Assembly (NCBI GenBank): GCA_947629955.1
Contig: CANRFT010000024.1
Coordinates: 1-33,810, forward strand
Origin: an uncultured Oscillospiraceae bacterium
GTDB lineage: Bacteria; Bacillota; Clostridia; Oscillospirales; Oscillospiraceae
Direction of reading: 5' to 3'
Length of the DNA stretch: 33,810 nt
Shown here: piece by piece, positions 2,779 to 31,040 of the stretch
How positions within the stretch are numbered: the stretch's first letter is position 1
Layout of the letters: each line of letters starts with the position of its first letter
Made by a program: the position numbers and the translations under genes
The notes under the pieces: generated by a model
What the model was told of the DNA's origin: nothing
Database searches by the model: none
The model's input: the letters and a program-made list of their open reading frames with translations, nothing else

Positions 2779-3186
2779 TCAGCAGTCCACGGTGATGTTG
2801 TCGGTGCCGTGGGCCTCGAACTCGTCGATGTAGGCGTCGATGCGCTGGGTCAACTCGTCGTAGTTGCTCTCGTCGATGGGCACGTCGTCCATGTCCCGGC
2901 GGGCCAGGTCCTCCGCCAGGATCTCGAAGAACACGTTGTTCTCGTAGTCCATGATGGCCTCGTGGATGCCCCCCTCGGCAAAGGCGCGGGAGGGGATGAT
3001 CTCCCCCTGGTACTCCTCCGCCAGGGTGGTCATGCCCTCCTGAGCGGCCTTGGCGAACAGGAGGCTCTCCACCTCGTCGTAGTCTTTGAAGCGGTCCTCG
3101 CCCCGTGTGGAGTTGAGGATCCAGTTCCCGATATATACCATGTCCAGCAGGCGCCGCAGCTGCTTGCGGGTGAGTTCCAGTTCCAT
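2779..3186 (-). CDS. Conserved-looking acidic protein of unknown function
   Basis: A 135-residue soluble, acidic protein without a signal peptide or membrane segment. I do not recognise a family with confidence. It starts MELELTRKQLRRLLDMVYIG and is mainly helical in character, with several acidic clusters (for example residues 103-128). A strong ribosome binding site (AAGGAGG) precedes the ATG by about 7 bases, and a sigma-A type promoter lies just upstream at 3240-3267. It sits 34 bases before the DHHW gene and is probably cotranscribed with it. The codon pattern (GC-rich third positions) matches its neighbours, which supports a real gene. Confidence 0.72.
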   Translation of the reverse strand: MELELTRKQLRRLLDMVYIGNWILNSTRGEDRFKDYDEVESLLFAKAAQEGMTTLAEEYQGEIIPSRAFAEGGIHEAIMDYENNVFFEILAEDLARRDMDDVPIDESNYDELTQRIDAYIDEFEAHGTDNITVDC

Positions 3187-3239
3187 AGGTCAGACCTCCT
3201 TTGCCGGGAGAGAGAAAGGCCTCTCCGATACATCTCTAT

Positions 3240-3267
3240 TTTATACACCTTTTTCGGCGGTTGTCAA
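3240..3267 (-). promoter_or_regulatory. Sigma-A type promoter for the leftward acyltransferase cluster
   Basis: Read on the minus strand, TTGACA (3267-3262) and TATAAA (3245-3240) are separated by 16 bases. The position, about 50 bases upstream of the 135-residue protein's start, fits. No operator-like repeat is seen around it. Confidence 0.7.
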
Positions 3268-3332
3268 TGGGCATACTTGCCTCCCATCCCGCATATAGTC
3301 AGGGCAGATGCCGTTTGACGTGATGGAGCGTG

Positions 3333-3956
3333 ATGCTTATGGAGGAGTACAGAGGGGAAAACAGGATCGTTCTGCGGGGACAGGTGGCGGGGGCGCCGGC
3401 GCCCTCCCACCGGAACCACGGGACCGACTACTACATCGCGTCCTTCCGGGTGCCGCGGCTGTCCGGGACGGACGATGTGCTGAATCTCATCGCGGCGGAC
3501 CCGGACCCGTCCCTGTGGACAGTCGGGCGATGGCTCACCGTCCAGGGGGAGGTGCGCTCCTATAACAACCGCTCCGGCCAGGGGAGCAAACTGGTGGTCA
3601 CCGTGCTGGTGCGGTCCGCCGCCCCGGCGGAGGAGGAGTCCGGCGAAAACCGGCTGATCCTGGCGGGGGTCCTCTGCCGCAGGCCGGTGGTCCGGCGGAC
3701 CCCCCTGGGCCGGGAGATCTGCGACCTGCTGCTGGCTGTCAACCGACCTTACGGGCGGGCGGACTACCTGCCCTGCATCGCCTGGGGCTCCCTGGCCGCC
3801 CACTGCGGAGAGCTGAGCGTGGGCAGCGGCCTGCGGCTGGAGGGCCGCCTCCAGAGCCGGCAGTACCACAAGATCATCGACGGGGAGCAGATCACCCGCA
3901 CCGCCTTTGAGGTGTCGGTGATGAACCTGCTGCCCGGGGAGGAGGACCCTCAGTAG
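3333..3956 (+). CDS. Single-stranded DNA-binding protein-like, two tandem OB-folds
   Basis: About 207 residues, made of two similar halves. Residues ~5-95 and ~104-200 each look like an OB-fold of the SSB/PriB kind: RIVLRGQVAGAP...YYIASFRVPRLSG and then RLILAGVLCRRPVVRRTPLGREICDLLLAVNR, followed by a YLPCIAWGSLAAHC strand and LEGRLQSRQY. A family of this kind, of unclear role, is widespread in Clostridia and is annotated as SSB-like. The acidic C-terminal tip of canonical SSB (DDDIPF) is absent, so it is unlikely to be the housekeeping SSB. Start choice is uncertain: ATG at 3333 or 3339, or GTG at 3330; GGAG at 3325-3328 serves all three. Its 3' end overlaps the convergent glycosylase gene by 7 bases. 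Confidence 0.8.
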   Translation: MLMEEYRGENRIVLRGQVAGAPAPSHRNHGTDYYIASFRVPRLSGTDDVLNLIAADPDPSLWTVGRWLTVQGEVRSYNNRSGQGSKLVVTVLVRSAAPAEEESGENRLILAGVLCRRPVVRRTPLGREICDLLLAVNRPYGRADYLPCIAWGSLAAHCGELSVGSGLRLEGRLQSRQYHKIIDGEQITRTAFEVSVMNLLPGEEDPQ

Positions 3957-10785: not shown

Positions 10786-10817
10786 ACAGGCCCCCGGGCG
10801 TATGCCCGGGGGCCTGT
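10786..10817. terminator. Bidirectional terminator-like hairpin between convergent genes
   Basis: A perfect 14-bp stem (10786-10799 with 10804-10817, ACAGGCCCCCGGGC and complement) with a four-base loop lies between the ends of the orphan gene and the SLH protein gene. The T-run is weak on both sides, but position and stability suggest termination in both directions. Confidence 0.65.
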
Positions 10818-10849
10818 CGTCGCATGGTTACCGATTCAGATACGTAACA

Positions 10850-13402
10850 TCAAATCACGGGAGCGGTGGCCAGAGAGGCGCCCACGCCGATGATGATGAG
10901 GTCGACCCGCTTATCGGTGTTGCTGTGATAGATTACGTTGGCCGCATTGTCAGCCTTGACGCCCGCGACGGTGCCGGCGGTCACGGCGCCGTTGGCGACG
11001 GTGTACACCTGGCAGCCCTCGGCCACAGGCAGCCAAGTGGCGGCGGCCTCGCTGGCGCCGAAGCCGATCAGATCCTGCTTCACGGCCTGGATGCCGGTGG
11101 CAGAGACGTAATCGGTGCTGGGCGTGGCGATCGTAGCGGTGGTGATGATGCCGTTCTTCACGGTCACGGCCTTGAGGATCGCGTTCTTAGCAGTGGTGTT
11201 GTCCACCAGGTCCTTCAACGTGCCGGTGCTGTTGTCGAGCAGAGCCTCGGCCACCTTGACGGTGCCGATCTGGCCGTTGGAGACCGCCACGAACTCACGG
11301 TAAGCGCCGTCGGCGGAAACCGTCTTCGCGGCGTCCTTGTTCGCGACGATGAACATCATCTCGTCGGAGGGAGTGCCGGAGTCGGTATCAAGCGCGAGAT
11401 GAGAGCTCTTCAACTGTACGAACACGGCCACAGCGATCTTGGTGCTGCTGTCGTACACCGCGACCACGTCGTTCGCCTCAGCGGTGCCGCTGATGGAGGG
11501 AACGTTGGCATAGCCCACATAGGGCGTCACGTTGCCGGTGGCGTCCTTCACCAGGAACACGGTGTTGGCGCTGGCGTACAGGGTGGCGGGGTCAGTGTCG
11601 CCCACATCGATAGAGGTCGAGCCCTTGTTGATGTCCACGGTATCGGCGTCGCTCGCCGCGTTAGCGTAGCCGCTGGGGAGCGCGTTCAGATCCCACACAC
11701 TGGTCTCGTCGTCGATATCATAGGAGACGAACATGTTGCCGGCTGCATATGCTCCCCCGTCCGTGCCGTCGATCTTGACGGTCTCGGTCTTGCCGTCGAG
11801 GGTCAGGACCTGGGCCAGGTACGTACCGCCGAACGCGTCGGAGGGATCAGCCTTGGCCTGGATCACATAGACGAACTGAGCGGGAGTGTCGGAACCTGTG
11901 GCGTCGGCCTTCACGATCACGTCGCCGTTCACATACGCGGTCACGTCCGTCTTGTTAGTGATGTAGGTGGACGAAATGGCGGTGGTGGGCTGAGCGCCGC
12001 CCACGCAGTTGGCGGCGGGGGCCACCTGATAGACCGTTCCGCCCACGGTGGCGGACACCAGCGCGCCGCCAGTGGCGGCGGACGTCATACCGCTCACAAC
12101 GCCGCTCACCTTGGTGGCCAGTTTGTGGGTGACCACGGTGTAAGTGGAGTTGCCGTAGCTGTCCCCGGCCTTGGTGTAGAGGATCACGTCGTCCACGGCG
12201 TAAGCCTCGGTCTCAATGCCCTTGGTGTTGACCGTGGTATCGGCCAGGGTGGTCTTGGCCTTGCCGTCGGCGGCGTCAGCGGCCTTGGTCACAGAGGCAA
12301 CCGTACTGGCAAAGGTGTTCACCACAACGACGGTGTCGATGGCGCCCTTGGTGCCGTACAGCTCAACGGTGTTGGAGTTGTTGGCCAGGGCCACGATGTC
12401 GTCCAGGCCGTCCAGGCTGCTGCGCGCGGTGTCATTCTTGTAGCCGTCCACGTAGTACGCGCCGTTAGTGGTGAAGTCGCTCTTGAGGGCATAGCCGGCA
12501 GCGGTCAGGGCAGCGTCGGTGTCAGTGGTCTTCACGGTCAGCACCAGGCCCTTGGGCGCGTCATAGACGACCTCGGTGGCCTCGATGGTGTCGTCGCTGG
12601 AGAGGGCCCACTCGCTGGCGTTGGGACGGCCGAACGCGTCAGCGGCCTTGGCGGCGGTGAGTGCGGAGCCACCGGAAGTCTTGTCCAGCGCGGTGTTCTT
12701 CAGAGTGGGATAGTTGATGGAGCGATAGGAAGCTTCGTCGCTCCTTGTCGCGTTCACCACGATGGTGGTGCCGTCGGACAGGGTGACGTTGGTGCCGCCC
12801 TCGTAGGTGACGGTGTTGGCCTTGATGGCGTTGAAGGCCATCTGGGCGGCCTGCTCGCGGGTCAGGTTGCCGCTGAGCACGATGTCGGAGTCGGCGGTCA
12901 GGTTGGCCTTCTTGAGCGCCAGAGCGGCCACGTTGATCTCCCAGCCGGAGCCGGTGAACTTCTCGATGGTGCTGTCATAGCCCAGCACGCCCAGCAGCAG
13001 GGCGGCGAACTGATGGCCGGTGATCGTCTGCTCGGGGTAGAAGTTGACGCCGTCGCCGTGCAGGATGTCCTTGGCGGCGCAGTAGGCGATGGAGCCGGCG
13101 GACCATCTGTCAGCGGCCACGTCCTCGAAGGGGTCGGTGGGGGTGGCCAGCTTGTCGGCGGCGTCCTTGCCCAGCAGGATGTAGGTGACCAGCTTGGCAG
13201 CCTGCTCACGGGTCAGGGGGCCCGCGGGGTTGAAGTTGCCGTTCTGATCGCCCTCGATGACGCCCACGGCGGTCATCACGGCCACGGCCTCATCATAGTT
13301 GATGTCGGCCTGGTCGGGGTACGCGGCGTTGACGGTGACCATCACGGAGACGACCATCATCAGGGCCAGGACCAGCGCGAGGAACTTTTTCAAGTTTCTC
13401 AT
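10850..13402 (-). CDS. S-layer homology (SLH) domain surface protein
   Basis: An 850-residue secreted protein. A signal peptide (MRNLKKFLALVLALMMVVSV, cleavage near VNA-AYP at about residue 26) is followed by three SLH repeats at roughly 28-80, 91-145 and 150-195; PLTREQAAKLV, ITGHQFAALL and NLTREQAAQMA are their TREQA-type helices. SLH repeats bind pyruvylated secondary cell-wall polymers. The rest (200-850) is Thr/Ala/Val/Asp-rich and beta-type with few Cys residues, as in S-layer and large surface proteins. The ATG has GAGGAGG behind it in an AT-rich leader (13403-13527) that contains small hairpins but no clear promoter. Strongly biased codon use (no TTA, CTA or TCA codon) suggests high expression, so it may be the main S-layer protein, though this is not proven. 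Confidence 0.9.
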   Translation of the reverse strand: MRNLKKFLALVLALMMVVSVMVTVNAAYPDQADINYDEAVAVMTAVGVIEGDQNGNFNPAGPLTREQAAKLVTYILLGKDAADKLATPTDPFEDVAADRWSAGSIAYCAAKDILHGDGVNFYPEQTITGHQFAALLLGVLGYDSTIEKFTGSGWEINVAALALKKANLTADSDIVLSGNLTREQAAQMAFNAIKANTVTYEGGTNVTLSDGTTIVVNATRSDEASYRSINYPTLKNTALDKTSGGSALTAAKAADAFGRPNASEWALSSDDTIEATEVVYDAPKGLVLTVKTTDTDAALTAAGYALKSDFTTNGAYYVDGYKNDTARSSLDGLDDIVALANNSNTVELYGTKGAIDTVVVVNTFASTVASVTKAADAADGKAKTTLADTTVNTKGIETEAYAVDDVILYTKAGDSYGNSTYTVVTHKLATKVSGVVSGMTSAATGGALVSATVGGTVYQVAPAANCVGGAQPTTAISSTYITNKTDVTAYVNGDVIVKADATGSDTPAQFVYVIQAKADPSDAFGGTYLAQVLTLDGKTETVKIDGTDGGAYAAGNMFVSYDIDDETSVWDLNALPSGYANAASDADTVDINKGSTSIDVGDTDPATLYASANTVFLVKDATGNVTPYVGYANVPSISGTAEANDVVAVYDSSTKIAVAVFVQLKSSHLALDTDSGTPSDEMMFIVANKDAAKTVSADGAYREFVAVSNGQIGTVKVAEALLDNSTGTLKDLVDNTTAKNAILKAVTVKNGIITTATIATPSTDYVSATGIQAVKQDLIGFGASEAAATWLPVAEGCQVYTVANGAVTAGTVAGVKADNAANVIYHSNTDKRVDLIIIGVGASLATAPVI

Positions 13403-13527
13403 AGGATTTTTTCCTCCTCAAATTAAATTTGCCGATTTTGCGAACTTTTTCGCCGTAAAGGATGGGATAAGCCATCCTCTCAAGGAAAATCGCTTACAAA
13501 AATTAGCAAAAACAGGGAGAAGAAAGC

Positions 13528-13580: not shown

Positions 13581-14738
13581 TCAATATTTTAGGCGATTTT
13601 CGGTCCAATCAGAAATGACGTTTAAATAACAAAAAATCGCGTTTTTTGCGTCAAAAAGGCTCAAATTTGCGTAATTACCGCACTCGCGTGCACTGTTGCC
13701 CGGCATGGGTCCGTCGTAGTCCAGGGCCTCCCGGCAGGCGTTTTTGACAAGTTGTACCACATCGGCGTCATTCAAGATTTTGGAATTTGAGAGGAGGTAA
13801 AAACCCGTCTGACAACCCATTGGACCGAAGTAAACGATCCCGTCACTTTTTGGGCCGTTTCGCAAGATAGTGGCCAGCAGATGCTCAACGGAGTGCATTT
13901 CGGAATTAGTGAGCAAATCGCCGGTATTTGGCCGTTTGAACCGCAAATCATAGGTGGAAACGTCCCCATCTCGGCGGGAGAGGTACAGGCCGGGCAGGAG
14001 GGTGGTGTGGTCGACTTCGAAACTTTTTATGGTTTTTGAGAGGAGATTCAACTCCTCTTTTTTGCCTCGGAGGGCCCGCGCGGCGGCCAAAACGACCCGA
14101 TTGAGGGCCTCCATGGCGGATGCGAAGTTGAAGAACTCCTCGCTGTTTTTTTCGCTGGTGAGCCGGTCGGAGACGGTCTTCAGCGCGGTAAAGTTGACTT
14201 TGCTGCGCAGGCACACCTGGGCGACGGCGCCGCCCTCCATCTCGCAAAGCGTGGGGTCAAAGGTGGATTTGATCCAGTCTGCGCGGCTGCCGGGGGTCAT
14301 GAAGACGTCCCCCGTGGCGACGGTCCCGGTAATAAATGGGACGTCCAAACTCCGCAAAATGTTCTGGATCTTCTCGAAATCCGAGGTTTTGAACTGGATT
14401 TGGTTGACGGTAGAGACGAACCCCACGGGGTCGCCCATAGGGGAGGTATCCACGTCGTGTTGGACGAAGGACTCCACCGCGACGACGGTGCCGATGGGCA
14501 GATCGAGGAAGCTTCCGGCGACGCCGGCGTTGACGATCCAGTCTGGGTGGTAGAGGTCGATGAAACGTTGTGCGCTCATGGCGGCATTCACCTTGCCGAC
14601 GCCGCCGGCGTAGGCGAGGATGCCGGGCTCGATCTGATAGATTTGCATGCCGGAGCGGTCGTCCAGCATACGGCCGCCGCAGGATTTGAGCAGGCTGTCG
14701 ATCTCGCCCTCCATGGCGTAGGCCAGTCCGATAAGCAT
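13581..14738 (-). CDS. Fused 5'-methylthioadenosine/SAH nucleosidase and S-ribosylhomocysteine lyase (Pfs-LuxS)
   Basis: A 385-residue protein that joins two consecutive enzymes of S-adenosylhomocysteine recycling. Residues 1-~228 match MTA/SAH nucleosidase: IGLAYAMEGE with Glu12, the AGGVGKVNAA and NAGVAGS loops, EMEGGAVAQVC and the catalytic Asp at 191 in TVSDRL. Residues ~235-385 match LuxS: FEVDHTTLLPGLYLSRRD, zinc ligands H282 and H286 in MHSVEH (with Glu285), catalytic Cys309 in GPMGCQTGF and the third ligand Cys353 in ARECGNYANL. All key residues are kept, so both halves should be active: SAH to SRH plus adenine, then SRH to homocysteine plus DPD, the AI-2 precursor. The two genes are normally separate. 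The 3' half is visibly less GC-rich than its neighbours. It lies 56 bases after bioY and may share its promoter. Confidence 0.93.
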   Translation of the reverse strand: MLIGLAYAMEGEIDSLLKSCGGRMLDDRSGMQIYQIEPGILAYAGGVGKVNAAMSAQRFIDLYHPDWIVNAGVAGSFLDLPIGTVVAVESFVQHDVDTSPMGDPVGFVSTVNQIQFKTSDFEKIQNILRSLDVPFITGTVATGDVFMTPGSRADWIKSTFDPTLCEMEGGAVAQVCLRSKVNFTALKTVSDRLTSEKNSEEFFNFASAMEALNRVVLAAARALRGKKEELNLLSKTIKSFEVDHTTLLPGLYLSRRDGDVSTYDLRFKRPNTGDLLTNSEMHSVEHLLATILRNGPKSDGIVYFGPMGCQTGFYLLSNSKILNDADVVQLVKNACREALDYDGPMPGNSARECGNYANLSLFDAKNAIFCYLNVISDWTENRLKY

Positions 14739-14794
14739 AGAGAACGCCTCCTAAAAATGATGAAAAGTAGAGAGATCGCCGGGGAAACGCGTTG

Positions 14795-15367
14795 TCATGG
14801 GATGAAATGTGCCTGGCGGAGCCTTCGCCTCACCGGCGCGCCGATGGAGACGGCGGCGGCCATTTTGACCAGGTCAAAGGGCACGAACGGGGCGACGCAG
14901 ACGGCCAAAGCGGTGTGCAAAGGATTACCGCTGAGGGCGCAGAACCAGGCGGTCCCCAGGGAGTAGAGGGCGGCGGTGCCCAGGATCATCCCGCCCAGAC
15001 GGATGGCGGCGGATGCAACCGGGGAGCGGCCCTGGGCGGCCAGGGCGCACCATCCCGCGATGATGGCCATAGGGAGATAGCCCACGAGGTAGCCGCCGGT
15101 GGGGCCGAACAGGGGCCCTGCGCCACCCTGATACCCTGAAAACACCGGGAGACCGGCCAATCCCAGCAGCAGGTAGGCGGCAACGGAGGCGGCGCCCCAC
15201 TTCCAGCCCAGCAGCTCCACGGACAGGTAGATGAGCAGCGTTGCCAGGGTCACCGGCACCGGCCCCACGGGGATGGCGAAGGGGGCCAGGACGCACAGGA
15301 GCGCCGTCATCACGGCGCAGGCCGCCAGGGGATAGACACGGCCTCTCGTTTGTTCAGACGTAGACAT
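14795..15367 (-). CDS. bioY: BioY biotin transporter substrate-binding subunit
   Basis: A 190-residue membrane protein of the BioY family, the S-component of ECF-type biotin transporters. Visible marks are VPVTLATLLIYLSVELLG, the GLAGLPVFSGYQGGAGPLFGPTGGYLVGYL segment (the GP.GG-L motif of BioY) and five to six hydrophobic helices. The genes for the energising EcfAA'T module are not in the window, so a shared module is assumed. The ATG follows AGGAGG by about seven bases. No BirA-type operator (TTGTAAACC...GGTTAACAA type) is seen near the promoter. Confidence 0.93.
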   Translation of the reverse strand: MSTSEQTRGRVYPLAACAVMTALLCVLAPFAIPVGPVPVTLATLLIYLSVELLGWKWGAASVAAYLLLGLAGLPVFSGYQGGAGPLFGPTGGYLVGYLPMAIIAGWCALAAQGRSPVASAAIRLGGMILGTAALYSLGTAWFCALSGNPLHTALAVCVAPFVPFDLVKMAAAVSIGAPVRRRLRQAHFIP

Positions 15368-23176: not shown

Positions 23177-23194
23177 CTGCGTATTTAGATGGGA

Positions 23195-27085
<3,891 letters not shown>

Positions 27086-27103
27086 AGTTTCGTCCTCCCT
27101 TTC

Positions 27104-30853
<3,750 letters not shown>

Positions 30854-31005
30854 TTCATCACGCTCCAGTCGTCAAATTTCGGCCGGGTGAAACGCCCGGC
30901 GCAGTTGTCAGTTAGTTGCAACCCGCTCTTGCGTTTTGTTCCGGCTTCTGTTATACTGCGCTTAGATTGGAGGGGGAGGCCCCTCTTTTCTGTTGCACAA
31001 AAAAG
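30854..31005 (-). promoter_or_regulatory. Untranslated leader of rpoBC
   Basis: About 150 bases between the predicted start (near 31005) and the rpoB ATG. It holds two hairpins: GAGGGG/CCCCTC (around 30970-30985) and GCCGGG/CCCGGC (about 30885-30903). No known riboswitch or ribosomal-protein binding site is recognised. Autogenous control of rpoBC is possible but not shown. Confidence 0.45.
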
Positions 31006-31011
31006 CACTTT

Positions 31012-31040
31012 ATCATAACATGAGTCGGCGTCCCCGTCAA
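31012..31040 (-). promoter_or_regulatory. Promoter of rpoBC
   Basis: On the minus strand TTGACG (31040-31035), 17 bases, TATGAT (31017-31012). It is back to back with the str operon promoter at 31154-31182, about 115 bases away. Confidence 0.85.

Follow-up and report, generated by a model that had tools for sequence, protein, structure and literature searches.

An MTA/SAH nucleosidase and LuxS joined in one reading frame in a clade of Oscillospiraceae

The stretch of DNA analysed here (33,810 nucleotides of contig CANRFT010000024.1 from an uncultured Oscillospiraceae bacterium of the gut, hereafter the window) carries a gene in which an MTA/SAH nucleosidase (Pfs, or MTAN) is followed by LuxS (13581..14738, minus strand). 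It is a single ATG-started frame of 385 codons, which runs on the minus strand from 14738 down to 13581 without internal stop, and the same fusion is found at three further loci (L002, L003, and L004). The Pfs half (residues 1–222; 14073..14738, minus strand) and the LuxS half (residues 237–385 and the stop codon; 13581..14030, minus strand) are connected by a linker of 14 residues (223–236; 14031..14072, minus strand). A ribosome-binding site, AGGAGG, precedes the ATG (14739..14760, minus strand; pairing energy of −10.2, with the 8-mer ending 7 nt before the start). Both Pfam families are recognized over their cut-offs, i.e., PNP_UDP_1 (PF01048) at residues 40–219 (E 3.9e-27, 95.6 bits versus 25.1) and LuxS (PF02664) at residues 237–375 (E 5.7e-44, 150 bits versus 27). 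The original prediction, which had read Pfs and LuxS in one polypeptide, is thus borne out. Matching against solved structures gave MTA/SAH nucleosidases for the Pfs half (best E 8.6e-22) and LuxS for the other (best E 2.4e-18). The TIGR01704 profile is passed by the protein of the window (75.7 bits for a cut-off of 73.8), while that of L004 falls 0.7 below. Two NCBIfam equivalog cut-offs are missed: PRK05584 (131.5 versus 169), which is also missed by both unfused relatives scanned (L021 and L058), and, just barely, PRK02260.1-4 (156.8 versus 158), for which one of the two unfused pairs is likewise below the cut-off (L058, 156.4; L021, 160.6). No Rfam element was found in the window at or above the gathering score.

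Upstream of the fused gene, at a distance of 56 nt, lies bioY (14795..15367, minus strand; Pfam BioY), which codes for a biotin transporter component. By synteny, L002 and L003 also have bioY next to their fused gene; in L004, it was not found within 6 kb upstream. In L031 and L033, two loci of the same genus (genomes G027 and G030), an ATP-grasp gene and bioY stand further upstream of an unfused pair, with an extra stretch between. MTAN also clears the 5'-deoxyadenosine left by radical-SAM enzymes such as biotin synthase. Nevertheless, we set bioY aside as a functional partner: among the 80 loci of the scan described below, it is directly adjacent in L002 and L003 only. Elsewhere in the window, a plus-strand frame of 2609 codons (23189–31018) lies over two minus-strand frames (23195–27085, 1296 codons; 27104–30853, 1249 codons); since no Pfam match was found in the plus frame, the real genes there may be on the minus strand. 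Frames of 874 codons (10802–13426, plus strand) and 850 codons (10850–13402, minus strand) also overlap almost fully, the second one carrying S-layer homology domains (Pfam), and a similar double frame is located downstream of the fused gene in L003.

The catalytic residues of both enzymes are conserved. In an alignment of 26 rows, E12, E168, D191, S239, H244, R266, H282, E285, H286, C309, and C353 are invariant, including all those that the original prediction had singled out (E12, D191, H282, E285, H286, C309, and C353). This alignment (A2) replaced a first one of 99 rows (A1), mixing fused and single-domain proteins, in which LuxS rows had been misplaced over the Pfs half. We take E12, D191, and E168 to be the catalytic Glu12 and Asp197 and the ribose-binding Glu174 of MTAN (E. 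coli numbers), and H282, H286, and C353 to be the His-His-Cys metal ligands of LuxS (in the HxxEH and ECGNY motifs), with E285 and C309 presumably its catalytic Glu and Cys. Mutants of E. coli Glu12 and Asp197 occur among the titles of the structures matched by our model (see below). On a broader set of 81 unfused rows, 70 LuxS columns and 45 Pfs columns hold one letter in at least 95% of the rows, and the four fused proteins all keep 62 and 43 of them, respectively. None of the catalytic residues named above is among the conserved columns that changed.

How far does the fusion extend among relatives? A scan of a collection holding one genome per species (84,980 species), which favors loci with pfs and luxS side by side, gave 529 relatives, of which the best 80 were retained. 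Three of these 80 loci are fused, and the other 77 have separate neighboring pfs and luxS genes. Within the genus of the window, LuxS is present in 23 of 42 genomes and is fused in four of them, i.e., that of the window and three others (G026, G028, and G032, the same records as L002, L003, and L004). Hence, the search for chains with both domains in this order, which the original prediction had proposed, yields three further carriers in the same genus, and its view that the two consecutive enzymes are normally separate is true for most relatives examined. In 18 of the 19 unfused LuxS-bearing genomes of the genus, a separate pfs directly precedes luxS; in the last one (G031), the surroundings of luxS showed no pfs.

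All four fused proteins are 385 residues long, with no indel among them and a linker of equal length, and the Pfs halves of the other carriers are 74–85% identical to that of the window. These observations bear on the trivial explanation that a stop codon or an indel between two genes was lost by assembly or sequencing error. The carrier assemblies are indeed all fragmentary (about 60–280 contigs each), which leaves some room for such a slip. However, the fusion is shared by four species with the same linker length and lost LuxS start signals; a stop between the domains, which according to the original prediction would refute the fusion if the locus were re-sequenced, is absent from the sequences of all four; and both halves are under purifying selection (see below). 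We therefore give an artifact a practically negligible probability, and the natural fusion can be taken as real.

The organization of the unfused relatives suggests how the two genes could have been brought together. Among the 77 unfused loci, drawn from the best 80 of 529 relatives in a scan that favors such pairs, pfs lies directly before luxS in every case. The two genes overlap in 5 loci and are separated by 0–30 nt in 59, by 31–120 nt in 8, and by more in 5; altogether, 64 of 77 pairs overlap or stand no more than 30 nt apart. These gaps were counted from the nearest in-frame start codon, which leaves individual values uncertain by a few codons. In 28 of the 77 loci, pfs and luxS are already in the same frame. 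Outside the genus, the order is more varied: luxS comes first in some other genera of the family and class (L101, L128, L129, L131, and the pairs of genera g215 and g294), and no pfs was found beside luxS in L084/L109, L106, L127, and L130. In the unfused L031 and L033, the stop of pfs overlaps the start of luxS as TAATG. Reading the junctions by eye, we found in the linker of L003 a GAGGA like that of L031, placed 16 nt from the old ATG, versus 9 in L031; seven extra bases at the junction would bring pfs and luxS into one frame. A small change in length where the two genes meet may thus have turned a tightly packed pfs-luxS operon into a single frame.

The signals from which a separate LuxS would be translated have decayed in the fused genes. 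Separate luxS genes start with ATG in 76 of 77 loci, and 74 of 77 show an anti-Shine-Dalgarno pairing of −5 kcal/mol or stronger at 4–10 nt before the start (median −10.3). None of the four fused genes does so at this distance (−3.2, −0.4, 0, and 0). A pairing is found at 14 nt upstream in the window (−8.3), L002 (−5.7), and L003 (−5.8), and these three would pass the count by energy alone if no spacing limit were set. In the window, the linker DNA holds an AGAGGAG, the apparent remnant of the old luxS ribosome-binding site. At the old start codon (residue 235), the window reads AAA and L004 reads AAG, while L002 and L003 retain the ATG, now coding for an internal Met; the in-frame TTG codons of the window close to this site are codons 217 and 230. 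With the start codon lost and no ribosome-binding site in place, LuxS lacks an ordinary start in the window and L004; in L002 and L003, where the old ATG is kept, some weak internal initiation may still occur. Having lost the ribosome-binding site in all four species and the start codon in two, LuxS would be made mainly or only within the fused chain. Also within the linker DNA (14031–14072) lies an inverted repeat, AGAGGAG-TTGAAT-CTCCTCT, whose pairing in the mRNA could mask what is left of the ribosome-binding site.

We then considered where the LuxS half comes from. The original prediction had remarked that it is less GC-rich than its surroundings, and this is right for the genome of the window, where the LuxS part has 49.1% GC (57.3% at third positions) against 61.3% for the Pfs part (83.8% at third positions). 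The prediction took this as a hint that luxS was acquired and joined later, which would mean an import from elsewhere to a resident pfs. In the other three carriers, on the contrary, the LuxS halves (63.3, 55.5, and 65.3%) are only 1.7–3.5 points below their Pfs halves (65.0, 58.6, and 68.8%). The LuxS halves of the other carriers being at 55.5–65.3%, the drop postdates the fusion and took place in the window's own line. Trees were built on 90 rows, after dropping duplicates (L029, L119, L120, and L122) and entering L053, which has a stop inside the matched region, with an X. In the Pfs and the LuxS tree alike, a branch separates the four fused rows from all others (SH-aLRT of 100 each), as expected if one fusion event took place in an ancestor of four species of this genus. 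In a free quick LuxS tree, L068 and L016 are the neighbors of the fused rows (supports of 87 and 93), a placement that differs from the Pfs tree and could again speak for an acquisition. However, a LuxS tree constraining the fused rows with their 24 Pfs sisters reached a log-likelihood 33.9 above that of the free search, with an AU p of 0.90 (a test run on 81 rows, nine long or odd ones being left out). Common descent of the two halves is therefore not rejected, and it is favored by the gene order: pfs precedes luxS throughout the 77 unfused scan loci (from the best 80 of 529) and, within the genus, in 18 of the 19 LuxS-bearing genomes without the fusion. The proposal of a later acquisition does not hold up well against these results, and we regard it as very unlikely.

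Both halves have been maintained since the fusion. In the six pairwise comparisons of the four fused genes (Nei-Gojobori), dN/dS is 0.22–0.37 for Pfs and 0.05–0.19 for LuxS, i.e., below 0.4 for both halves in all six pairs, and 0.46–1.77 for the linker. Hence, both enzymes are held by selection, and the letters of the linker, of constant length, are nearly free to change. The LuxS half went through a period of faster evolution. Without fusion, LuxS is the better conserved of the two enzymes, the 19 unfused sisters being 70.4% (LuxS) and 54.7% (Pfs) identical to seven far relatives; for the fused proteins, the values are 56.7% (LuxS) and 52.1% (Pfs). On the stem of the fused clade, LuxS accumulated 1.11 changes per site versus 0.32 for Pfs, and the outgroup distance relative to the sisters is 1.65 (1.34–1.99) for LuxS and 1.10 (1.01–1.17) for Pfs. 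Ten LuxS positions and three Pfs positions are fixed in the four fused proteins for a letter found in fewer than 5% of 34 unfused relatives. Within the clade, beyond the stem, LuxS is once more under the stronger constraint. The fast stem may reflect either a refitting of LuxS or a passing relaxation around the fusion, and it could also mean an altered activity.

These data bear on the idea that the fusion is simply tolerated, two genes being read together with no gain over the operon. This idea is compatible with a bifunctional enzyme of single origin from the operon, as it concerns the advantage and not the activities. It fits the near-neutral linker and the close spacing or overlap in 64 of 77 unfused loci (again from the best 80 of 529 relatives), as well as the in-frame reading of LuxS with an unrelated neighbor, TadA, in three genomes of another genus (see below). 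It fits less well with the retention of the fusion in four species that have diverged as far as their Pfs halves indicate, with the loss of the ribosome-binding site and start codon, and with the LuxS rate shift on the same branch, although relaxed constraint could give that too. We give this neutral reading somewhat less than an even chance.

In the carriers, the fused gene seems to be the whole route for clearing S-adenosylhomocysteine (SAH), a toxic by-product. Each of the four has one copy of LuxS. Apart from the fused protein, the genome of the window has a single PNP_UDP_1 protein, a uridine phosphorylase (333.8 bits versus 280.3); the other three carriers each have a uridine phosphorylase, and G028 has in addition a DeoD-type purine phosphorylase. 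No SAH hydrolase was found in the eight genomes with a fusion of either order, in a search that was positive in 9 of 14 control genomes. All four carriers have a member of the S-methyl_trans family (the homocysteine methyltransferase family). The genomes are 98.5% (window), 98% (G026), 78% (G028), and 98% (G032) complete, so absences in G028 weigh little. No second Pfs or LuxS was found in any of the four carriers, nor any SAH hydrolase, so that the fused protein is probably a working bifunctional enzyme. Its N-terminal half would take adenine off SAH, and its C-terminal half would cleave the product, S-ribosylhomocysteine, to give homocysteine and DPD, the precursor of AI-2.

A structure model of the fused monomer (mean pLDDT of 90.1, pTM of 0.59) predicts two well-formed domains on a loose, disordered tether, residues 227–239 having a pLDDT below 50. 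Its best PDB match is an MTAN (5cce, E 4.8e-23), and the 50 structure matches shown are all MTAN, some of them titled futalosine hydrolase of H. pylori. The LuxS half does not appear among these 50, and its identity comes from the Pfam, NCBIfam, and sequence-to-structure matches. MTAN and LuxS are both obligate dimers, and the LuxS homodimer has its active sites at the interface; the fused protein would presumably be dimeric as well, if both dimers can form in one chain. Substrate channelling, which the original prediction had raised, is possible for such a protein. Since the halves are predicted to sit on a flexible 14-residue tether, any aid to the transfer of the intermediate would come from closeness and not from a built tunnel.

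The search for other fused chains covered the LuxS-positive genomes of the genus (23/42), family (104/400), class (156/391), and phylum (72/398), and those in the families or order of two matches (33/38, 15/16, and 25/31), these sets overlapping. The two domains together require some 330 codons at least, and all listed frames of that length were fetched. Among the matches listed, the reverse order, with LuxS ahead of Pfs in a single frame, occurs in at least four genomes outside the window's clade. These genomes belong to genus g287 (G721 and G1205, both of its genomes searched; L132, 2894–4051 on the minus strand, and L145) and to genus g309 (G773 and G1230, both of its genomes searched; L133, 2898–4028 on the minus strand, and L146). 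In these reverse-order fusions, hardly any linker separates the domains, and Pfs does not begin with a Met. In g309, an Asn replaces the catalytic Asp of Pfs (L133 and L146), and the fused Pfs is the only PNP_UDP_1 match in the two genomes (85 and 79% complete), which makes its activity doubtful. As g287 and g309 belong to families other than that of the window and show the opposite order, Pfs/LuxS fusion probably has at least three origins. In three of seven g215 genomes (G559, G1232, and G1233; L134, L147 at 2846–3850, and L148), LuxS is in frame behind TadA, and pfs follows as a separate gene; an ATG (two cases) or a GTG (one case) still stands ahead of LuxS, and a separate initiation is therefore possible. 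With reverse-order fusions in two genera and TadA-LuxS in another, LuxS appears to fuse with its neighbors repeatedly. The long frames of G174, G245, G414, and G022 were rejected as chance or out-of-phase extensions, and shorter long frames (G117, G114, G196, G077, G036, G337, G137, G234, and others) held no fusion. Neither did the four plasmid or phage records matching at least 80% of the query, where H1 is annotated as two genes and H2, H11, and H12 have two frames each; matches to a further 105 plasmid and 21 phage records were shorter.

Recurrence raises the question of a selected machine for channelling, in which the active sites are held together and the fast LuxS changes built a contact surface. 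The fusion of these consecutive steps in three genera and in both orders, the very short linker of the reverse-order genera, and the acceleration of LuxS and not Pfs at the fusion, followed by renewed constraint, would all suit such a machine. However, the tether of the window's fusion is near-neutral and disordered in the model, the monomer model (pTM of 0.59) does not place the halves in a fixed arrangement, TadA, which catalyzes an unrelated step, shares a frame with LuxS as well, and one reverse-order genus has an Asn at the catalytic Asp of its Pfs half. We consider this machine quite unlikely. A broader proposal is that MTAN-LuxS fusion is recurrent and selected, having arisen at least three times in one class and in both orders, with the dimers gathered in one assembly, LuxS refitted to MTAN in the window's clade by its ten fixed changes, and proximity transfer added to a fixed coupling of SAH clearance to AI-2; as a whole, it too seems to us improbable.

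Genus g215 also holds a second, divergent LuxS-like domain, detected in six genomes (L149 at 208–1395, and L150–L154; PF02664, E 1.3e-10 to 1.2e-6). In the four that were translated (L149–L152, L151 being cut at the contig start), this domain ends the protein, and the N-terminal part has repeated GRPRKNP-like motifs, which to our eyes resemble AT-hooks. In L149, HxxEH has become HxxQH; the metal-binding His, His, and Cys are seemingly kept, and the active-site Ser, His, and Arg are lost. In two of the six genomes (G791 and G809), no true LuxS was found. This protein looks like a LuxS-derived, perhaps DNA-binding, pseudo-enzyme, and no paper treating LuxS together with an AT-hook was found in the open-access literature.

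The fused gene can be compared with several other arrangements. With the separate mtnN/pfs and luxS genes, it shares the families, the catalytic residues, and the gene order of the operon of its Oscillospiraceae relatives; it differs from them by the single polypeptide, by a LuxS without start site of its own, by the 14-residue linker, and by the ten fixed LuxS letters rare among unfused relatives. The proteins of g287 and g309 likewise have both domains in one frame, but with LuxS first, a very short linker, and, in g309, an Asn for the catalytic Asp, and they occur in other families of the class. In the TadA-LuxS frames of g215, LuxS likewise continues the frame of the operon gene upstream of it, but the partner is a tRNA adenosine deaminase and the LuxS start codon is still present. 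Engineered LuxS-Pfs fusion proteins, made from E. coli genes, have been used to produce AI-2; they hold the same two enzymes in one chain but are man-made, and we found no match for them in the open-access literature. Nor did we find there any natural Pfs-LuxS fusion, for which subscription papers and web domain databases may well have entries. As far as their main texts go, four surveys (PMC5029033, PMC524169, PMC2561040, and PMC6022435) use neither "fusion" nor "fused". In PMC5900771 and PMC5940823, E. coli Pfs and LuxS, or MTAN and LuxS, are expressed as separate tagged proteins, and the former reports that the growth of a yeast sah1 mutant is restored by the two-step pathway.

Taken together, our results make it very probable that the gene codes for a bifunctional one-chain enzyme which arose once, from a tight pfs-luxS operon, and in which the loss of the LuxS start signals made co-production obligatory. 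In this scenario, the luxS ribosome-binding site would have been lost after the joining, together with the start codon in two species. The main consequence would be an obligatory 1:1 co-production of the two activities in one place. The original prediction that a fusion would fix their ratio is sound in this respect, a 1:1 output following by construction. Most likely, this is a genuine case, ordinary in its parts and unusual in their joining.

In a long-standing debate, AI-2 is seen either as chiefly the by-product of clearing SAH or as a separately tuned signal, and the carriers would offer a natural experiment on this point, as the two steps can hardly be tuned apart by gene expression in these bacteria. 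The protein would also provide a ready-made one-chain enzyme leading from SAH to homocysteine and the AI-2 precursor. Finally, the genus may give a stepwise example of how a bifunctional enzyme originates, from operon to overlap, fusion, loss of start signals, and rate shift.
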